A DNA stretch of 21,976 bases, from contig WELB01000039.1 of the NCBI GenBank assembly GCA_009602725.1, positions 100,518-122,493 on the forward strand, in the 5' to 3' direction. Position 1 is the stretch's first letter; each line of letters starts with the position of its first letter. The notes beneath the pieces are model-generated. The model saw nothing but the letters and a program-made list of their open reading frames with translations, was not told the DNA's origin and did not search any database. Origin of the DNA: Spirogloea muscicola (Eukaryota > Streptophyta > Zygnematophyceae > Spirogloeales > Spirogloeaceae). Position numbers and translations under genes: made by a program. Of this stretch, positions 951 to 16,470 are shown piece after piece.

Positions 951-3900
951 TCATAATGAAAAATACAGCGATGTAAATATGCTGCTAATGACAATGATGC
1001 CGCACATTATGGCCATGGCATGTGCAAAGCTAAGGGGGTCAATGCCCAGCCATGCAGGCAGAGCAGTCACAGGCTTCTCGACACTTGTGTGCTGCATGAC
1101 CACACTCGGGGCGCCACTGGAGCCATGCCCGATTCCACCGTTGTGATGCATACATGGACCTCCATTCCGTCTGCTGCAGTCATCAGTATCGTCAGCTTCA
1201 CTTGAACATTCTCGAAGGGCCTCAACCTCCACCACAGTAGCTCTACGAGCTTGCAAGGCCTCGGCAGGACCCTCACGAAGTAGTGGCTGGGCCATAACAT
1301 GGTTCAGGGACGCCCCTTCCCTGTGTACTGAGTTTGGGCACGATTGGCTGCATGCTTGTACAGTCGAGTAACGCAGGAGAGCTGCTCTGTACAAGAGTGC
1401 TGGCACAATCAGATTGATGGTGCCCTGGAACAATATAGCCACCCAGTTGCAAAATTGCACAAGAATCTGCATGTTATACACAATGCTGAAGCCCTTGTCA
1501 ATGCAGGTTCAAGCCAATTGCCTCACCAGACAAGTAACTGGCAAGCTGAGGAGACCTCCGCAAGCGAGACTAGTCAGTAATCTGAAAAGCCTCAGCGATG
1601 AGGTGGTAGCTAAAAACCTGAGCTTGATAGCAGAACGCTGTGATGACCCAGGGGGCCACCACAGCAGCCAGGAAGGCTCCTTTGTGTCCAAGCAATCCCC
1701 CATTGTGTAAGTTGTACCGTACCATGATTGACAAGACCGGAATTCCAGGAACATAACCAAAGATGCCCCACATGTACACCGATGCTTCTGTAAGACGTGG
1801 TATCTGCAGCAGGGAATTGCAATCAGCAGATTGTGTCCCGGTATTGATAGCAATATGAGATTGGATGCTAAAAGCTGCCAGCACAAGTCAATGTAACGAG
1901 GACAAGAAGAGCAGCCACTGAATACATACGCAGAGTACCTGTCAGTAATTTAACACATGCTTGTTTGTCAGCTTTTACCTTAGCTGTGGTACATGTTGTC
2001 CCTGGTCCGACTCGCTTAGTGAGGACATTGAGGATGTTCTCGGTCCCTGAAATGGGGTGCCCTTCTTTGTCTAGTAGATTGTACGCCCACGCTCCTAAAA
2101 GGCCTGAAGCAACGGGCCGCAGGGTTGATTCAATGTAGCTGAAAACAGAGAAGCCCATCACTCTAGCATGGTCTCAAATGAGCTTGCTGGCAGGACCACA
2201 GCTCACATCAACGGACAGGCAGTATACCCAAGAGAACGTTCAAGGTTACTCCTGCAGTGGCTGGCGCCCACACTGCAGTATTTACATTGACGCCTGGCCT
2301 CTTCTCATTGGCCCATGATGGTATAGTGCTCACGTAGGAGTAGGAGAAGACACAAACACCTATCACCTGGTGTGAGTAGCAATCAGAGAGCAATCATGGG
2401 CTGCAATTGAGTAACAGCTTAGAGGCAGATCAGCTAATCAACCATGGTGGAACATTGCAAGCAGCTTGCCCTATGGACCTGGGCTATTAGAATCACAACA
2501 TGCCATCTGTCAGGCTCACAAGCTCCTGCTGAGATACCATTACTAAGATCTGTGTTCTTCTACAATTTTCAAGTTCGAGCACTCCTGGAATACATTTGGG
2601 CTTGAGCTCTGCTTGGGTGATTGTTTAATGTCCACGAGACTCTCAAAGACAACAGAAGCTGGGGACGAGCAAGGGCTCTCATTGAGCAGCAATGCCCCAT
2701 GGACCCAATGAGGAAAAGAGCAGGCAAGAGCAACATGCCTGGGAAATATCCAGGCCCCAGAAAGGGGTTCTTTGAGGCCCATTATCTGGGCAGTACGACT
2801 GAAATCCAGGCCACAAATTCGTGATAAATTGCCCAATGAATTCCAGCGAGAAGACTAGTTGGGCCACCATGCTCAGCCACTGAAAGCTCATGTTGTCATC
2901 TAGATTCAGGGTCCCAAATGGCACGCATATCACCATGCATGCCAGAAACCTGCACAATGCCAGCCGTTCACCTTCAAACATTGTGGAATAAGAGGGAGAA
3001 GAGGCTAGGCTTGATAAAGCAGCCAGACTTGCTCGGTGTCTAGATTGTACCCGAGGGATATGACTGAAGTCTTGCAGGAGCCAGAGCTATCTAACCCCCA
3101 CTGACATCCACTTGTTTCGAACATGCTGGCTGTGTACTTGGGTGGCCATGTATAATAGTCCAAGCCATAAGTCTTCCCAAACATTCTGTGAATGGTGGCG
3201 TCGAGGACCTGAGACAACGTAGACAATATCTGAATATATAAGACAGTGCACTAAGAAGTCTTCATGGTCGTTGCGAGGTGCTTTTTGCCTAGACTGTCTA
3301 CAATGAGCAGCACCAAATCATCACGTAGTACTCAAACGCATGAACCTGAAGACACAATTCTGACTTGCTCACCTGTGATGTAACGATCATGGCAGCGATG
3401 TTGGATGCCAGGAGACCTGCATTGAATCCAACCTGCAAGTGTGAAAGTACTTCTCAGTAATCTGCTGCACATCAAACAACTGCCTCTGAAGTCGACTATT
3501 GAGATGGAAGCACACAATTGAAGGGTCGTCTACAGCAGCCAGCTCAAGCCAGCTTAATACCTGAGCTGCTAGGTACCAGTGCTTGCCAAAGTAGTGCCGT
3601 ACAACACTGCAGTACTCGTACCTCTGCCCAAAGCTCTTGTTTCCAGGAATCAATTGCATGGATTCACAGATCATTGTAGCCGAGAAGCTGCTAATGATGT
3701 ACATTGCAAGGAGTCCAAGGGTAGGAAGAAACCAGCCCGCCTCCTGGTAAAGCAGCGGTAGCACAACCATTGCTGGGCCTGTGATATTGTTAAAGTTCAG
3801 CACACAGGACCTGCATTACAAGAGACAGCCACGTTACTGCTGGGCCTGTGATATAGTTAAAGTTCAGCACACAGGACCTGCATTACAAGAGACAGCCACG

Positions 3901-4702: not shown

Positions 4703-4730
4703 CGCGGCGGCGGCGGAGGCGGCGGCGGCN
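4703..4730. repeat. GCG/CGG trinucleotide run ending in an N
   Basis: Interrupted CGG units (one GAG interruption) end at an ambiguous base at 4730. On the minus strand this is a CCG run about 150 bases upstream of the permease start codon. The N probably marks low-quality reads in the run. Confidence 0.8.
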
Positions 4731-8303: not shown

Positions 8304-11300
8304 TCAGAAGGGTGGTTCTGTGATGAGGACATTGCGGAGCCCGAAATGTCGGTGCGACGCATCCCCTGTGTTGGTCAGCAGAACCCCACGCGCCTGCAGC
8401 AGGCCAATCAGTACCGTCTCTAGAGAGCGCGCTGCGCTCATGTCCGGCATCCGCACATACGCAATGGTTGCCCCGCGTAGCCCCTTGGCGCGGTGCGCCC
8501 TGATCCTCCCCCAGATGTTGTCAGTCTGGATCACCAGCCCGCGCAACGGGAGGCCTCTTGTAAATGGCTTGTGGAGTAGCTAGGTTACCACAAATTGAGT
8601 CACCTTGCATGTATATGTGGTCCACACAATATACATTTTGACGCATCTGCTGAGAGCAAAACGATTGCAGTTCACCCCAGAATCATGCAGTGTGCTACGT
8701 GACCGCCTAGGCAATGGGTATATCACCTGGCCAACATAAAATCGGTTGTCAGGCCTGTGGATGACATAGACGCAGGACTGGCTGACGGCTCCTGGCGGTG
8801 GCACCTGACGCGGCATCACAATCTGCCACTCGAGCGCTTGGTTGCCGAAGCTCGCCAAGAGTAGGCCGCTCAGCTCAGCCAGGTTGAAGGAGACGGCCAC
8901 CTGCTGCGAGCTGGGATACTGCATCGAGGTTCCTGCGCAGGTTGATATATCAAGATGACCACAGACCGTCATCACCAAGTGCAGGTCTCCTATACAGACA
9001 CTAGGGCGGACCACTGGAAATCGAGTGTCTACTCAATGCTGAAAAATGTCATAAAGTCCCCTGGCCCTGAAGCTTGCACTACCCCATGTAAAGGAAACAT
9101 ACAGTACACAGCGCGTGTCATGGAGTTGGATATTGATAAGCAGCTTCAATAGCTATAGTTCCATAATAATACCCTTGCTTCTTGTATTGCATGCCACCGT
9201 GCTCTCTGCCGAGTTGCTCTTCTGTATTGCTTCTGTGACAGTGGCAGCCTCTGCTGGCCTGGTGTTATAGGTGCTGCATGTTGATGATGGTTCGACCTCA
9301 AAATGCATCAATGAGCCATTGGAGCCGATCAGCGTGTCCAAAGAGCTGAGGTAGCTTCCATTGCAACCGCCACCTTCCTTGTCAGTCTGTGACAACAAGG
9401 TACATTCAGCTTCCACCTGCTGTACTTGTGTGTCCACCACCTCCCCTCCTCCGTGGCTGTTGACAGCTAAATTCACCTCAACTTGTCCTTTAATATGCTC
9501 AGCAGCACTTTCAGGGTCAGGATAGGCTGTAAGCACAATGTCCTCCTCGAGCAAGACTGCCGCAGCCCGCCGGCCCCTGGCCCTGCCTTTGGCACTGTCT
9601 TTGACTACCTTCCGCTGCGTCACCTTACCAATGGCGTCGTTCTTGACAAGGGCCGCCGGGGCAGCTTGCACTGAAGCGTTTTCCTCCAACTGACTGAGAT
9701 GGTTCGTGTTCCTGGGCTTATCATGCGTCATCTCATGGTAGATCTCCTTGGCGCGCGTCACAAGCTCGCTGCTGACGCCCTCCTGCCGAGCAACCTCAAA
9801 TGCCAGGCTCTCGCGACACTCACCGTCGCTGAGAACCCACGTGGGCACACGCCGGCCATCATCCTGCACGGCTGTCCCCATGGCCTTTCGGACCACCTGC
9901 TGGCCACCATTGTTCCACCCGCTTGGCACTGTCCCGATGGCCCAGTGGTCGAGCAGGCCATGGAGATGCGTCGAGAAGATGCCAAGGCAACGGCGCGCTG
10001 CTAGCGCCTCCAGCACCGCCGCTGCAATGGCCGTGCCCTTGGTCACCTCCGTGCCCTTGCAGAGCTCGTCCACGAACACAAGGCTTCGCTCTGTCGCCTC
10101 CACCTCAATTGTCCGCAGCTCCGCCATCTCTACCTGCAATCCTTGTGCAATTGAGATATTCAGATTTCACCGTGATATCATGAAATTGTCTGTCCAATAT
10201 CTCCAAGGCATTAAGTGGACAATGACAGCAATATGTACTTTATCTTTTAACTGCTCTAGCAATGACTAGCTGACCTGCCGATGACCTGAGCAAGAGAGCG
10301 ACGGAGGCTAACGTCAATGTGATGAATTTCAACAATTACAGGAAACATTCATCAAAATAGTACCTGGAAGGAGCTCTTCCCATCAGCAGGGCTGTCAGCT
10401 GACATCATCCTGATTATCACCAAGTCCAGCGGCGGGACACTGCCGGACTTTGCCGGCACAGCCAGCCCACAGCTGGCCAGCAGCGCTGCTGCGCAAGTTG
10501 ACCGCAAGAGCGAGGACTTGCCACCACCGTTGGGCCCAGTGAGCAAGAAAATGGACGACATGGCAATGTCATTGGCCACCTGCCTGCCGCTGATTGGCTC
10601 CAGCCAGAAGGGCACGAGGCCCTCAAAGCGCACTTCTCGGTCTTCGGCAGCAGGGCTCTTCTGTTTGGAGCTAGGTTTGTCAACAAATGTGGGATACGTC
10701 CAGCCCTTACGTCGACTCTCACTGCATGGGGAAAACATTAACAGGCAGCAACAACGTCAGCGCTCAATAAGCGTCAGCAACAAAGTTCGAATGGCACCAG
10801 TCACTTACATCCATAACAAACGCTAGTGTCTACATAACTCCCTTGTCTAAATCAGGCTCTTAATCTGCAGGAAGTGAAGGAGGGCAGCAGCGTTGCTAAA
10901 TCCTACCGAACATGCTCAAATAGTGTCTTGCAGATCGTGGAGAATGCCGTGAGGGCAATGATGCTGTTCAACTTCTCCTGGAGGTCCCCAGTCAGATGGC
11001 GCAGGGTGCCCACCACAGCCTCTCCCGCCGCTTCAACTGCAGCGTGATACCTGGTCAGAAGGATGACAGGCCAGTCAGACTCATTGAAGCCATATGAGCA
11101 TGGCCATCATGACCAAGGGTTGCAGTCCAGGACTTAACAAGCCTCTCCTGAGCTTACCTGCGCACCGCACCATCAATGGTCGGCGTGGTGTGCCAGTCAT
11201 CGCCCATGCGCTTCCCCTTGTTGTCGACTGGGTGAATCAGCTGGGCAAACGTCTCCCGCGAGGCAGACAAGTGATCCGTGCTCACCCCCAATAGGCGGCG

Positions 11301-14300
11301 CAATCCCTTGGCCTTGAGCAGCACGAACCCCTGTTCCCGGTGGTAGCAGACCTCAGCGCGCCCAGCGATGGTAACTAACGCTGGTCCAACCAGGCTCCGC
11401 AGCCTCTCAATCACGGGGAGAAAGTCGGCGGTCACCTGGGAGCAGCCAACAAGAGCCAGAGCATCCACTTTGCTTGAAAGATATCAATCATGATAATAGT
11501 CGTTGGAATAAATACCTCAACCCATGAAGTATGCAGATACGAATGTGCAGTGGACACATATATCTTTCTACTAATTTACACAGAAGCAAGGAGCAAGCAG
11601 CACAAGTTATTCACCGTGTTGTGCAAGGCAGCTGCAGCCTCGTCCACATTTGCAAATGCCTCGGCAGCGTGCTTCCGCATAACCTTGCCCTTCCATGAGC
11701 GCTCATGATCCATGAAGAAGTCGTCCGGGATGTGCTCGCTCATGCTGACCGCTTGTTCAGGGTCCTCTGGCACCGCCAGCACATCATTCACCTTGGCCAC
11801 AATATGCTGGCAGTCCTCCAACTGCAGCAGCAAATAACAGGACCCTAAAGGTATTCAATGACCATGAGACTACAGTCTGACTGATATCTGCAGATTGTAT
11901 TGCTGTGCAAGGCACTGCCAGCGGACTAAGTGTACCAGGTTCGCTCATGATGTCAAGCCCACACGAAACTAGAACGATGCTAAAACGTTGCCTGACTGCG
12001 GATCAGAGGTAGTGGGCCACCAGCTGCTCATCGTTGAAGTGGATGCCAGCCGCGAGCCACGTTGGGTCAAGGAGCAACTCCGCAATGGGTCGCAGGTCGG
12101 CGCTGGCATGCATGCTGAGGAAGTCCTCGGCCAGCTGGCGCACCCGCGCAAGCTCCACATGATTGGCCTCCCTATCCCGGATAAGCTTCACCATCTGTTT
12201 CACTCTTGAGGTGCGACAAGAGGAACAGCAACAGATGAGAGAGCAGAGCAACAAATTCCAAGAATACTCGAAAGGAGTAGCCCGCTCTGTTGATTATTAG
12301 GTAATTTGGGGTCCTATGTTACATGAATGCTCCCACATCCTATTGGCCCTTCACATAGTCATAGACGATATTTGGCTGGCAAGAATAGCTGGCAAATGCG
12401 AAACTTAGTGGCTGATTCAAGTGTAAGTGCATGCTGGGGTGTACTCTGAGGAGATGCATCATTGGGCCCCTTATACTAGCAAGCGGCAACTGCACATTGT
12501 GATGGCTCAAGCACCCTCCAGTGGGGTTGTACCCGTGCTGCCGACAGGCCTCTTTGCAATGCACCATGTATACTGTTGGTGCACTTGGGCCACCACACTT
12601 TTCATGGTGCACTTGGGCCATCACACGGTTCAGCCTCCGCTTGCCAAGGAGGCAATCAGCTCCTGACAGAGTTTCCCAACACGCATATACACGTGGCTCG
12701 ACTACAGACTCAGCAATCTCCAGCCATCTCCCATGTTTGCAATATTGTGAGTCTGCTAAGTATTGCTCTTGTTTGTGAATCTATCTTACTAAGTGACGGT
12801 AGAGAGCAATTGCCGCAAACGCAACGCTATGCCTTAGTTCGTGTGACCACTACTCAAACCACCTCACCTTTGCACTAGAAACGCATGTGAAGGACGGCAC
12901 TGGCGTCAACAGTTGGCACATGAGTTTGCTCGCCGCCTGGATGGAGAGCGCAATTGGCTGCGGAGGTGGATTGAGAAGCAAGTCGCGTAAGTATCTGCAC
13001 ACCAGAAGCACATTCAGTTCTGAATGAAATCTTTCCCTCAGTGATCAACTATTCAAAGATCGATGATGACTCATAAGGTGCACTCACACTGGAATCACAG
13101 TGTTCCACAAAGATCAGCTAAAGTAAGATTGTGACCATGGCTTTTGAGGACGAGTGAGGTAGTAAGGAAAAATTGCTGATGCTGCAGGACAGGCTTGCCA
13201 ACATCAAGAGCACTGCAGCATATGGACAGGAGCCAAGGATTCACGCTTCGCAGAGGCCGCGGCTGTCGAGGTCTGCAGGGAGGAGGGAGCGGATGAGAGA
13301 AGGGACGCCGGGCGTTGTCAGGATGCCAATTTGACTGGCTGTGGAAACGTAGAGTGGCCGAATGCGATCGCCGGCTGGCGGGGCGATAAGCCGGAATGGC
13401 TCCTGCAGCGGCAGGTCAAACATGCGGCACACCTCGTCCTGTAGCTGCAGGAGCGGGTCCCCCTGATACCAGTCATAAGGCTTCCCATGGCACTCCGCCC
13501 ACAAGAGACCACCCTCGCCGGACTCTGTCCACTTGGCAGTCCCTGCCAGGTGCACCAGATCGGTCTGGTATTACTTACTGGAGACCTAATGTCTCGCATT
13601 TGCAAATTATCTACCAAGCCCATAAAGCCGGCCAGTTGCTTCCTCGCAGTGCATTTGCTCCAGCAGCAGTTAATATGCGCCTGAACTTTCACTGCTTGCA
13701 CAGGCAGGATAAGGAACACAAGCAATACCGTCCAACGTGTTTCCCATGGTCGAATGGAGGAAGAGCCTCTGGTAGCCCTTTGACCTGAGCTTGGCTATCA
13801 CGCCCTCCTCAGTCAAGCCTTCCTCCATGGAATATGTCCGAAGGAGCTCGGTGATGCTCACAACAATGTATCCACGACTGCTCCTGGCCAGTCCTGCATA
13901 TAAACATTGGCGTGACGAGGCTCTGTCTTAAGAGTAGCAATCAGTAACCACTTCAGCACATATACGTGACACAAGCAAGAGACGGTCCGCAACTAGGTAG
14001 GAAGCCAATGTGACTTGCACATGTTGCACAGGCAACAGGGCATAAACATCGCTAGACAGGTGAGGAGGGCATCCGAATACTAGCAAGGAGCACCACAGAA
14101 GCCTGCGGAAGCATTCTGTCGAGGTAATAGCATGCTTGTATTGGACTCACCAACAACTGGTAGCGGTTCTGGAAAGTGCACATCAATGTCAGCGGCCGCC
14201 AAGCCGTACACATAAGGACTCCCTGGGTGAGCATGCCTGATAAGACAACATTGGCAATCGCAGACCTGATGTAACATCCGGCAGCATAGTGAAAGTAGAC

Positions 14301-16027
14301 GGACAACCAGGACAAACACGTACTATATATCTGATTTTAGCTGCTGTGATAAAGGGGTTGGACTTGCAAATGCAATCCAGGACATGAGTGAGTGTAGCAG
14401 TTACCCAGAGATGAAGCGGTTCTTCCTCTGCCTGGCCACAGTAGGACCAGAGGCCTCCTCCATGATGCATACTGAGAGGCCCACACTGGTCAGCGAGTCC
14501 AAGGTCTGCCTCAGGTTCTGCAGAGAAGAAGGTGACGCAAGCTGAGCTCCTAAGCTTGTCGCTGCACTGGGCGAGAAGTCAGGCGCAGGCTTATTCGATA
14601 CAGCAGTCAGTGCCAAGCCAAGCAAGGGTCCAGCCAGAACATGTGCAGACCTTCTCTTTGACTAAAAATTGTGACTCTTGCATGACAACATTCAGACACG
14701 ACTCCCTGACCAGATATCTGTGGCGACGCAGTGCTCTACAACTTGTTTACTGCCGCATCTCTGGGTCTATCATTACAAACAGTACAGCTGCATGGCTTAC
14801 CAGGACAGGGCACCCGGCCTTGGGGATGTTGTCGGCACGAGCCCCGCCCATAGGATTGAGCCCCGCATGCTCCACAAGCATGCAGGCATCAAAACCCACA
14901 GCCTCGTAAAACTCCCCAATCTGCAGAGCAGCAAGAAAAATGGACCGTCTGAGGCAGCCAGTAGGTGACACGGTGGCTCCGCATGAGCTTGATAGCACTG
15001 AGCACTGGTCGAATCGGGCTGATGGATCTGAGTTTGTGCAGACGGGCAACAACGAAAGCAGGGGCTCACACTCCTCCACTACCACAGAAATTGGCAATGA
15101 GCAACCAACATTACATATTCATGGTGCCTCTTGCTTGCTGGGTCAGCGCTTACCCGGCAGAGGACAACCTCGCGAGGGAATTTGCGTTTGGTCTCCAGGA
15201 TCTCTGCGTTGATGGACCCCTCCTTGAGCGTCCCATTCTTGAGGCTGGCGTCAACTCCCAGCAAGTTGGTGTATGCTAAACGCTTCTGCATCTCCTTGAC
15301 TGCCGCCTTGCTGCACTGGGCCACCCTCTGGTCCAGCCACAATGCATCCAGATAGCAACATCTTGCTCGGTAATGCATTCCAAGCTTTCGTTTGCCCATG
15401 GGGGAATGACCTTATCTCGGAATCTGGGTCTTTGGGTGCTCAAATAGGTCACTGATTTGACAGCAGTGGAGCAGTGTCCAGTTGATGGAAGACACTTCTC
15501 ATCTGTCATGTGCACTTCAGACTTGAAGAGAGAGACTTCGACAACTCCAACTGACTGTTAGCCTCTCTTCAGAAGGCGGTTAAGTACGGGCAGAGAGTGT
15601 GAAGCTCACTACTCTACCGTACAATAAGGCACCTCTGACTAGCTGGAATGGACAATGTCAGCATTCCAGATCTCCTTTAGGCAACCCGCCTGACACTCCA
15701 AGCTGACTTGAGTTGCATCAGCCGAGGGTCGGACTGCAATCCCCTGCACCGACTTGCGGAGGCCAACACAGCGGCATTGCAGTCCCTCCTAGCACTGGCG
15801 AGCAGCTCCTCGGCTGGAGGCTTAACGTAATCCGAGGACGTGGAATATATCAGGACCTCAGTACCAGAGGCTGAGCGAGCATCGTGGTTGAGGTTCACGA
15901 CTGCTGACTTGTGATGGAGGAGAGGATCCAGGACGACGGTCCCTGATGGAGCAGAGCGGAACTGAGTGTTGAAGCAAAGGCTTCTGAGGACGAGGACGAC
16001 CTTAGCATTTAAGATGGATATTGACAT
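8304..16027 (-). CDS. MSH1: MSH1: organelle-type MutS homologue with C-terminal GIY-YIG nuclease domain
   Basis: MutS-family ATPase fused to a GIY-YIG endonuclease, as in land-plant MSH1, which acts in mitochondria and plastids to suppress repeat recombination and mutation. Phase-matched exons: about 15399-15154, 14920-14801, 14517-14405, 14236-14151, 13893-13729, 13542-13245, 12994-12868, 12194-12021, 11821-11615, 11435-11158, 11050-10907, 10721-10364, 10133-9173, 8932-8727, 8525-8304 (TGA). Counting from ATG 15399 this gives 1,234 aa. Motifs: YTNLLGVDASLKNG; mismatch-binding GEFYEA (Phe86, Glu88) with GLNPMGGARADNIPKAGCPV; HAHPGSPYVYG; Walker A GPNGGGKSS (about 715); SSFQVEMAELR; Walker B LVFVDE (about 790) with the STHLHG switch; GIY-YIG strands VYVI (1147) and YVG (1158), Arg1168/1170, Glu1197 and Asn1213. 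A roughly 230-residue linker precedes the nuclease. The N terminus is unresolved: an open frame from ATG 16027 (MSISILNAKVVLVLRSLCF, Arg-bearing and without acids, like a transit peptide) could be exon 1, or translation may begin at 15399. Confidence 0.9.
8727..8932 (-). other. Exon carrying the first half of the GIY-YIG domain
   Basis: Joins the exon ending at 9173 by phase 1 (SKG-TSMQYPS). It carries the end of the linker, then SCVYVIHRPDNRFYVGQ with both tyrosine motifs of the nuclease. The donor GTGATA follows YVGQ, and the rest of the domain (TDNIWGRIRAHR to the stop) is in 8525-8304. The intron therefore cuts the nuclease just after its second signature strand. Confidence 0.88.
12578..12633. 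repeat. Two tandem 28-bp units in an MSH1 intron
   Basis: GGTGCACTTGGGCCA starts both units (12578 and 12606); the copies differ at four positions. The repeat lies inside the large intron between the exons at 12194 and 12868. Confidence 0.8.
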
Positions 16028-16470
16028 CTGTAGATGTGTTTGAGAGCCAGAGGCTGAGCAGACCTCCTGCCAGAGCTGGAGGTGTGGGAGGTCCTCCTTG
16101 CGTAGCTGCTGCCCGGCGCCGGCGGCGGCGGCGTCGGCGACCCTGCGGCCGCTGGCGGCTCTCCCGGCCGCCCAGACGCGGTGGCGGAAGTGGCGCCTGG
16201 ACTCCCCCAGCGCGGGGAGGCTTGGCGGCCGAGCTCCCACCCCGAGGCTCCAGCAGCGCCGGCGACTGCAGCCACGCCGTGCAGCCGCCACCTCCGTCGC
16301 CGCCGCCGCCGCCGCNCGCGCCCAGCAGAGCCACCGCCCGCAGCCGCCGCCGCCGCCGCGGCGGCGGCGGCGGCGGCGGCAGCTCCTTGGAGCTCCGGTT
16401 ATGTGTTCCATGGTTCCGGCGCCCCGGATAAGCCTGGCAGATGCACGTACGGTCACTCGTGGGACTTGAT
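16028..16470. promoter_or_regulatory. GC-rich 5' region of MSH1 with CCG/CGG runs
   Basis: Strongly GC-rich stretch directly upstream of the most upstream candidate start codon of MSH1. It contains a CGC run ending in an N at 16316 and a CCG/CGG palindrome at 16343-16374. The open frames on both strands are runs of Ala/Arg/Gly/Pro caused by composition. Promoter or 5' UTR role is inferred from position and from the same signature near the other gene starts. Confidence 0.45.
16343..16374. repeat. Perfect 32-bp CCG/CGG palindrome
   Basis: A CCG run passes straight into a CGG run around a central CCGCGG. This gives 16-bp arms with no loop bases, which can extrude as a cruciform or fold in RNA as a long GC hairpin. 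Confidence 0.9.

Follow-up and report, generated by a model that had tools for sequence, protein, structure and literature searches.

A plant-type MSH1 gene, one of three copies in the alga Spirogloea muscicola, and a corrected prediction of its 5' end

We examined a stretch of 21,976 nucleotides from the zygnematophycean alga Spirogloea muscicola (C39:100518-122493; contig C39 is WELB01000039.1 of assembly GCA_009602725.1), hereafter the window. The gene on its minus strand is almost certainly one of three copies of a plant-type MSH1 in this genome, and a nuclear gene, as judged from sequence comparison. Positions given without a contig are those of the window. A reading made earlier from the sequence alone had described a fusion of MutS with a GIY-YIG nuclease whose exons join in phase to the stop codon, and this much was borne out: fifteen exons form a single open frame from 15399 to 8304, encoding 1234 amino acids in that form, and all 14 introns between them have GT-AG ends. 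Pfam finds MutS domain I (MutS_I, PF01624, E 2.6e-8), the MutS domain V ATPase (MutS_V, PF00488, E 2.5e-35) and a C-terminal GIY-YIG domain (PF01541) in the one protein. The motifs named in the sequence-only reading are likewise present in the translation; we take DELCKGT to be Walker B, STHLHG follows it, and CVYVI, FYVGQ, GRIRAH, SLET and LTN presumably carry the GIY-YIG residues. The best matches in the PDB by sequence are bacterial MutS proteins, across domain V. In the alignment to one of these, 1fw6, Walker A TGPNGGGKS pairs with TGPNMAGKS, and GEFYEA falls opposite GDFYEC, the mismatch-binding F-x-E, in a weak stretch (i-Evalue 0.85). When the 900-residue MutS part was compared with NCBIfam, it scored 112.7 bits against the MutS2 equivalog TIGR01069 (cut-off 400) and 151.8 bits against the MutS1 equivalog TIGR01070 (cut-off 641.7). 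We identify the gene as MSH1 because the same three domains, MutS_I, MutS_V and GIY-YIG, are reported in all green-plant MSH1 proteins surveyed by Bai and Guo 2023 (PMC10487979). The gene resembles Arabidopsis MSH1 (CHM; AT3G24320) in combining MutS_I, MutS_V and a C-terminal GIY-YIG domain within one intron-rich nuclear gene, but differs from it in being present in three copies and from the MSH1 of most angiosperms in having 16 predicted exons rather than 22 (PMC10487979).

A protein search of the whole assembly (153 Mb, 471 contigs) returned two more full-length sets of matches, on contigs C42 and C2, and, on C32, an isolated match confined to the last exon. The fifteen exons between 15399 and 8304 are equal in length across C39, C42 and C2, except that exon 14 (10133-9173) is shorter by 3 bases in C2. 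The GT/AG intron ends are preserved in all three copies, and the introns are 73-96% identical. From 15327 to the stop codon, the coding DNA of the three copies is 94.3-95.0% identical and the proteins 93.7-94.6%.

Comparison of the copies changes the 5' end of the gene. The sequence-only reading had placed the start codon at ATG 15399 and had called the span 8304-15399 complete; neither claim survives, as between 15399 and 15328 the same frame is interrupted by a stop once in C2 and twice in C42, and an N-terminal exon had been missed. We rejected the 15399 start for these stops. The three-copy alignment also shows one-base indels in C42 over this stretch. Because of the in-frame stops and the indels, 15399-15328 most likely is an intron, so exon 2 would begin at 15327. 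Further upstream, all three copies share an open frame that ends at 16064 before a weak donor, GTCTGC (GTCCGC in C42). The last 80 codons before this donor, ending in ..QQLRKEDLPHLQLWQE, can be aligned across the copies, given the loss of a single whole codon in C2, whereas the 736-760 bases that follow the donor contain indels of 1, 2, 4, 8, 10 and 15 bases among others. The upstream exon ends in ..LRKEDLPHLQLWQE and joins RVAQCSKAAV.., and the junction 16064/15327 reads LPHLQLWQE-RVAQCSKAAV. We consider it most likely that the exon at 15327 joins this arginine- and alanine-rich upstream exon. Since this conserved open frame provides an upstream exon that matches, the gene probably reaches about 16411, beyond the coordinates of the sequence-only reading.

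The predicted exon 1 (16064-16411, minus strand) thus stays open as far as a donor whose position the three copies share. Its candidate ATG in C39 lies at 16411, 116 codons ahead of the donor; the candidate in C2 lies 131 codons ahead, and the open frame of C42 has no ATG. The start codon is uncertain because every copy has one unread base in a GC-rich repeat of this exon. In the window, single unread bases stand at 16316, within that repeat, and at 4730. The first 90 residues from 16411 include 23 arginines, 17 alanines, 3 glutamates and no aspartate, and this composition, considered as composition only, would fit an organelle presequence. With exon 1 included, the predicted protein has about 1326 residues, which falls inside the range of 1040-1584 residues given for green-plant MSH1 (PMC10487979).

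The remaining exons, all on the minus strand, are placed by reading frame and by comparison of the copies. Exon 2 (15154-15327; acceptor ..GGACCAG before AGG) supplants the 15399 start. Exon 3 (14801-14920) contributes to MutS domain I and carries GEFYEA, and is placed by Pfam and the 1fw6 alignment as well; exon 4 (14405-14517) encodes more of domain I, again with Pfam in agreement. Exons 5 (14151-14236), 6 (13729-13893), 7 (13245-13542), 8 (12868-12994), 9 (12021-12194), 10 (11615-11821), 11 (11158-11435) and 12 (10907-11050) follow. Pfam also places the last four exons: exon 13 (10364-10721), with Walker A and the start of domain V; exon 14 (9173-10133), with DELCKGT, STHLHG and the end of domain V, followed by a linker whose fast evolution is apparent from dN/dS; exon 15 (8727-8932), with the start of GIY-YIG (CVYVI..FYVGQ); and exon 16 (8304-8525), with the remainder of that domain (GRIRAH..SLET..LTN) and the stop codon. 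Of the window's open frames, 20 were compared with Pfam; one exceeded a family cut-off, an amino-acid transporter exon at 3390-3803, and one other gave a match below its cut-off.

We estimated selection on the three copies by the Nei-Gojobori method. Over the whole alignment, dN/dS is 0.18 for C39-C42, 0.25 for C39-C2 and 0.20 for C42-C2; by region, it is 0.11-0.13 in the first 880 codons, 0.58-0.68 in the linker and 0-0.09 in the GIY-YIG end, where dN is 0, 0.017 and 0.017 for the three pairs and dS is 0.18-0.21. Purifying selection therefore acts on all three copies, the nuclease end included. These values also bear on whether the gene might be a MutS of another subfamily (MSH2-6, MutS1 or MutS2) to which an unrelated GIY-YIG gene has been wrongly joined at the 3' end. 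Domain V alone does resemble that of many MutS proteins: the closest other protein by BLAST with this domain is encoded on C91 of this same genome (50% identity over 126 amino acids), followed by a bacterial MutS (34% over 223 amino acids). Against such a misjoin, frame, exon order and splice sites are kept in three copies, the GIY-YIG end is strongly conserved in each of them, and separate MutS genes in the genome resemble the other subfamilies by motif. We regard a misjoin as very improbable.

The isolated match on C32 is a truncated extra 3' end (L007:3697-5530). It starts within exon 15, behind a GC repeat (from about L007 3697), and runs from the end of that exon through the intron and exon 16 into 3' flank. 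Its closest match is C42 (93% identity over 761 bases); identity to the window is 85% over 1866 bases, downstream sequence included, and to C2 83% over 1055 bases. A zinc-binding dehydrogenase frame adjoins the fragment on the opposite strand. Partial duplications of MSH1 are reported in more than a third of the species surveyed in PMC10487979. The moss gene MSH1L is likewise a partial duplication, but MSH1L is without the GIY-YIG domain, whereas the C32 fragment retains only the 3' end.

To place the three copies among other MutS proteins, we constructed a domain V tree of 19 rows: the three MSH1 copies, six further MutS genes from the same genome (each put together from its exons), one virus-like MutS, also from this genome, and nine bacterial MutS. 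It omits L148 (motif absent from its longest frame), L150 (which holds another part of the L149 gene, its second piece), broken copies of the virus-like gene, a piece on C6, and own copies beyond one per set. Subfamily names given to the remaining MutS genes of this genome are provisional labels, based on motifs or chosen by us. The MSH1 copies group together in a single clade (100/99). Four bacterial MutS2-like rows and the C159 gene of this genome make up a MutS2 clade (100/98), and the MSH1 copies fall outside it; a fifth bacterial row labelled MutS2-like has a very long branch and was placed elsewhere. The copies join the virus-like MutS at 90/93, a grouping marked by the program as potentially due to long branches; their link to two MSH6/7-like genes from the same genome is weaker (82/96). 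The tree thus places the copies neither within MutS2 nor with the bacterial MutS1 rows, and does not settle their relation to MSH6/7.

Several observations weigh against the identification of the gene as MSH1, or against details of the gene model. The deep position of the copies is left open by the domain V tree, whose comparison rows include no plant MSH1. The GIY-YIG match, whose frame is kept in the three copies, barely exceeds the Pfam cut-off (22.9 bits against 22.6); a PDB sequence search with 112 residues of this end, taken to E 10, hit no GIY-YIG chain, and a 110-residue piece matched no NCBIfam family. The candidate exon 1 has a weak donor, an unsettled start codon and no clear signal of selection, with pS 0.031 and pN 0.052 between C39 and C42 and pS 0.140 and pN 0.053-0.058 for the other pairs. 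Finally, the whole gene model, splice junctions included, is a prediction from DNA comparison.

The genome also encodes a MutS of a different kind. On C31, an intronless frame of 1122 residues (L003:2835-6173; C31:7335-10064 and on) is MutS-like: its first 833 residues contain MutS domains I, III and V above their cut-offs, and a CxxC..H..CxxCH stretch, which we take to be HNH-like, trails them. The frame is open over the 910 residues searched, and we presume it to be a MutS7-type gene. A partial second copy, 99% identical, lies about 60 kb away (C31:69291-70718), and broken pieces occur on C179, C54, C43, C78, C6, C95, C253 and other contigs; by eye, these virus-like copies do not come in threes, unlike MSH1. 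Beside the C31 gene, an intronless frame at L003:1066-2052 matches RNA polymerase Rpb1 domain 5 (E 2.5e-9), which is in keeping with integrated nucleocytovirus DNA. The capsid family PF04451 gave no match, and its control gave no match anywhere either. Altogether, the C31 region looks like endogenous giant-virus (nucleocytovirus) DNA with a MutS gene distinct from MSH1. MutS7, carried by some nucleocytoviruses and by octocoral mitochondria, is like MSH1 a MutS outside the usual set. The C31 gene neighbours MSH1 in the tree by the possible long-branch join described above; it differs from MSH1 in being intronless and in ending in the presumed HNH-like motif instead of GIY-YIG.

Such DNA raises the question of whether the window gene itself came from a giant virus in recent times and is not the ancestral MSH1 of green plants. 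Nucleocytoviruses do carry MSH1 with GIY-YIG (Sloan et al. 2024, PMC12292046), and the present genome holds giant-virus-like DNA with a MutS gene. The window gene, however, has 15 predicted introns and lies at corresponding places in three copies, whereas the virus-like MutS has no introns, ends in another C-terminal motif and shares 38% identity with MSH1 across 165 amino acids. Searches of IMG/VR with peptide and pattern also returned no MSH1 relative, which is weak evidence: a 125-residue query gave 52 stretches, none confirmed, and none of 12 loci with the pattern TGPNGGGK matched MSH1 (tblastn, 1e-3). In a collection of genome contigs, the whole protein gave 8 pattern stretches, none confirmed, and among the 120 stretches listed for TGPNGGGKSSL none matched at 1e-4; in a repeat of the latter scan, all three control MutS loci were matched and 15 of the 120 listed loci gave only short matches at 0.1. 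That these scans failed to recover the Gammaproteobacteria and virus MSH1 genes in print does not show absence. We hold a recent viral origin to be highly unlikely, and an ancestral green-plant MSH1 remains our reading of the gene.

We next consider why there are three copies. Grouped by eye, the 69 MutS matches in the genome include seven gene sets of three members each: C67/C9/C9, C13/C45/C87, C253/C10/C162, C59/C157/C148, C159/C1/C70, C91/C160/C53 and the MSH1 set, C39/C42/C2. The remaining matches are either virus-like (C31 twice, C54, C179, C6) or single and weak (C20, C18, C152). GRAS genes, with 92 matches here and none in 14 prokaryotic control genomes, likewise include several sets of three. 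Among the green plants surveyed in PMC10487979, S. muscicola alone has three MSH1 copies, which are ascribed there to a recent whole-genome triplication, and triplicate DCL genes in this species are given the same cause (PMC7994812). Because the seven MutS sets and several GRAS sets come in threes, and because the triplication is published, the three MSH1 copies are most likely homoeologs. In favour of haplotypes, or of three mixed strains, the contigs are unplaced on chromosomes, and intron identity of 73-96% could equally separate related species. We find this unlikely, given that each of the seven MutS sets has three members, that C9 carries two members of one set, and that homoeology fits the published triplication and the three MSH1 copies reported for S. 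muscicola.

The two members on C9 (C9:332946 and C9:970471) lie about 640 kb apart, which reflects either a rearrangement between subgenomes or a misjoin. On three contigs (C91:345551-351872, C160:126238-132284 and C53:670585-676663), GRAS matches are found some 4 kb from MutS matches, and this neighbourhood is conserved across the triplicated regions. Third-position GC, calculated without exon 1, is 70.3, 70.8 and 69.4% in the three MSH1 copies and fits S. muscicola only weakly, the published ranges being 70.06-75.59% for streptophyte algae, 71.45-77.90% for charophyte algae and 44.11-91.52% for chlorophytes (PMC10487979). Among species markers, the rbcL family PF00016 gave no match, and 5S rRNA gave 33.

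In land plants, MSH1 is dual-targeted to the organelles, lowers their rate of point mutation and suppresses recombination between small repeats; the proposed route starts with double-strand breaks made at mismatches and continues with homologous recombination (PMC12292046). The purified protein has confirmed activity on recombination intermediates, and preferential binding of mismatches was not found (PMC12292046). Given the shared architecture and the selection described above, MSH1 most likely has the same role in this alga. By analogy with land plants, the protein would most likely be imported into mitochondria, plastids or both. There the MutS part would bind recombination intermediates or DNA that is distorted or mismatched, domain V would serve as the ATPase behind conformational changes, and the GIY-YIG nuclease would cleave the DNA so held for repair by homologous recombination, with fewer point mutations and less ectopic recombination as the outcome. 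The low-complexity N-terminal starts of the copies differ and their linkers evolve fast, and the MutS core and GIY-YIG end are nearly fixed. On this basis one could imagine that the three retained copies share out the work, for instance by organelle, an idea that we consider a long shot; if true, the tripled alga would have separate mitochondrial and plastid MSH1 proteins.

The sequence-only reading saw in an intact algal copy evidence on the system's age. The copy does exist, but the question of age has already largely been settled in print. Bai and Guo 2023 report MSH1 in all green-plant lineages sampled, with nine chlorophytes screened and nine species incomplete (PMC10487979), and Sloan et al. 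2024 describe an ancient transfer that predates the common ancestor of all Viridiplantae (PMC12292046). The finding is thus right in kind and already known, as regards both MSH1 across green-plant lineages and the three copies in S. muscicola; the latter, reported as more than 90% alike (PMC10487979), are probably the same genes as ours. What the present analysis adds is the corrected 5' end, the estimates of selection and the C32 fragment. This locus leaves the view of MSH1's age unchanged, and offers a revised gene model for one MSH1 copy out of three in a zygnematophycean alga, a member of the group that is sister to land plants.

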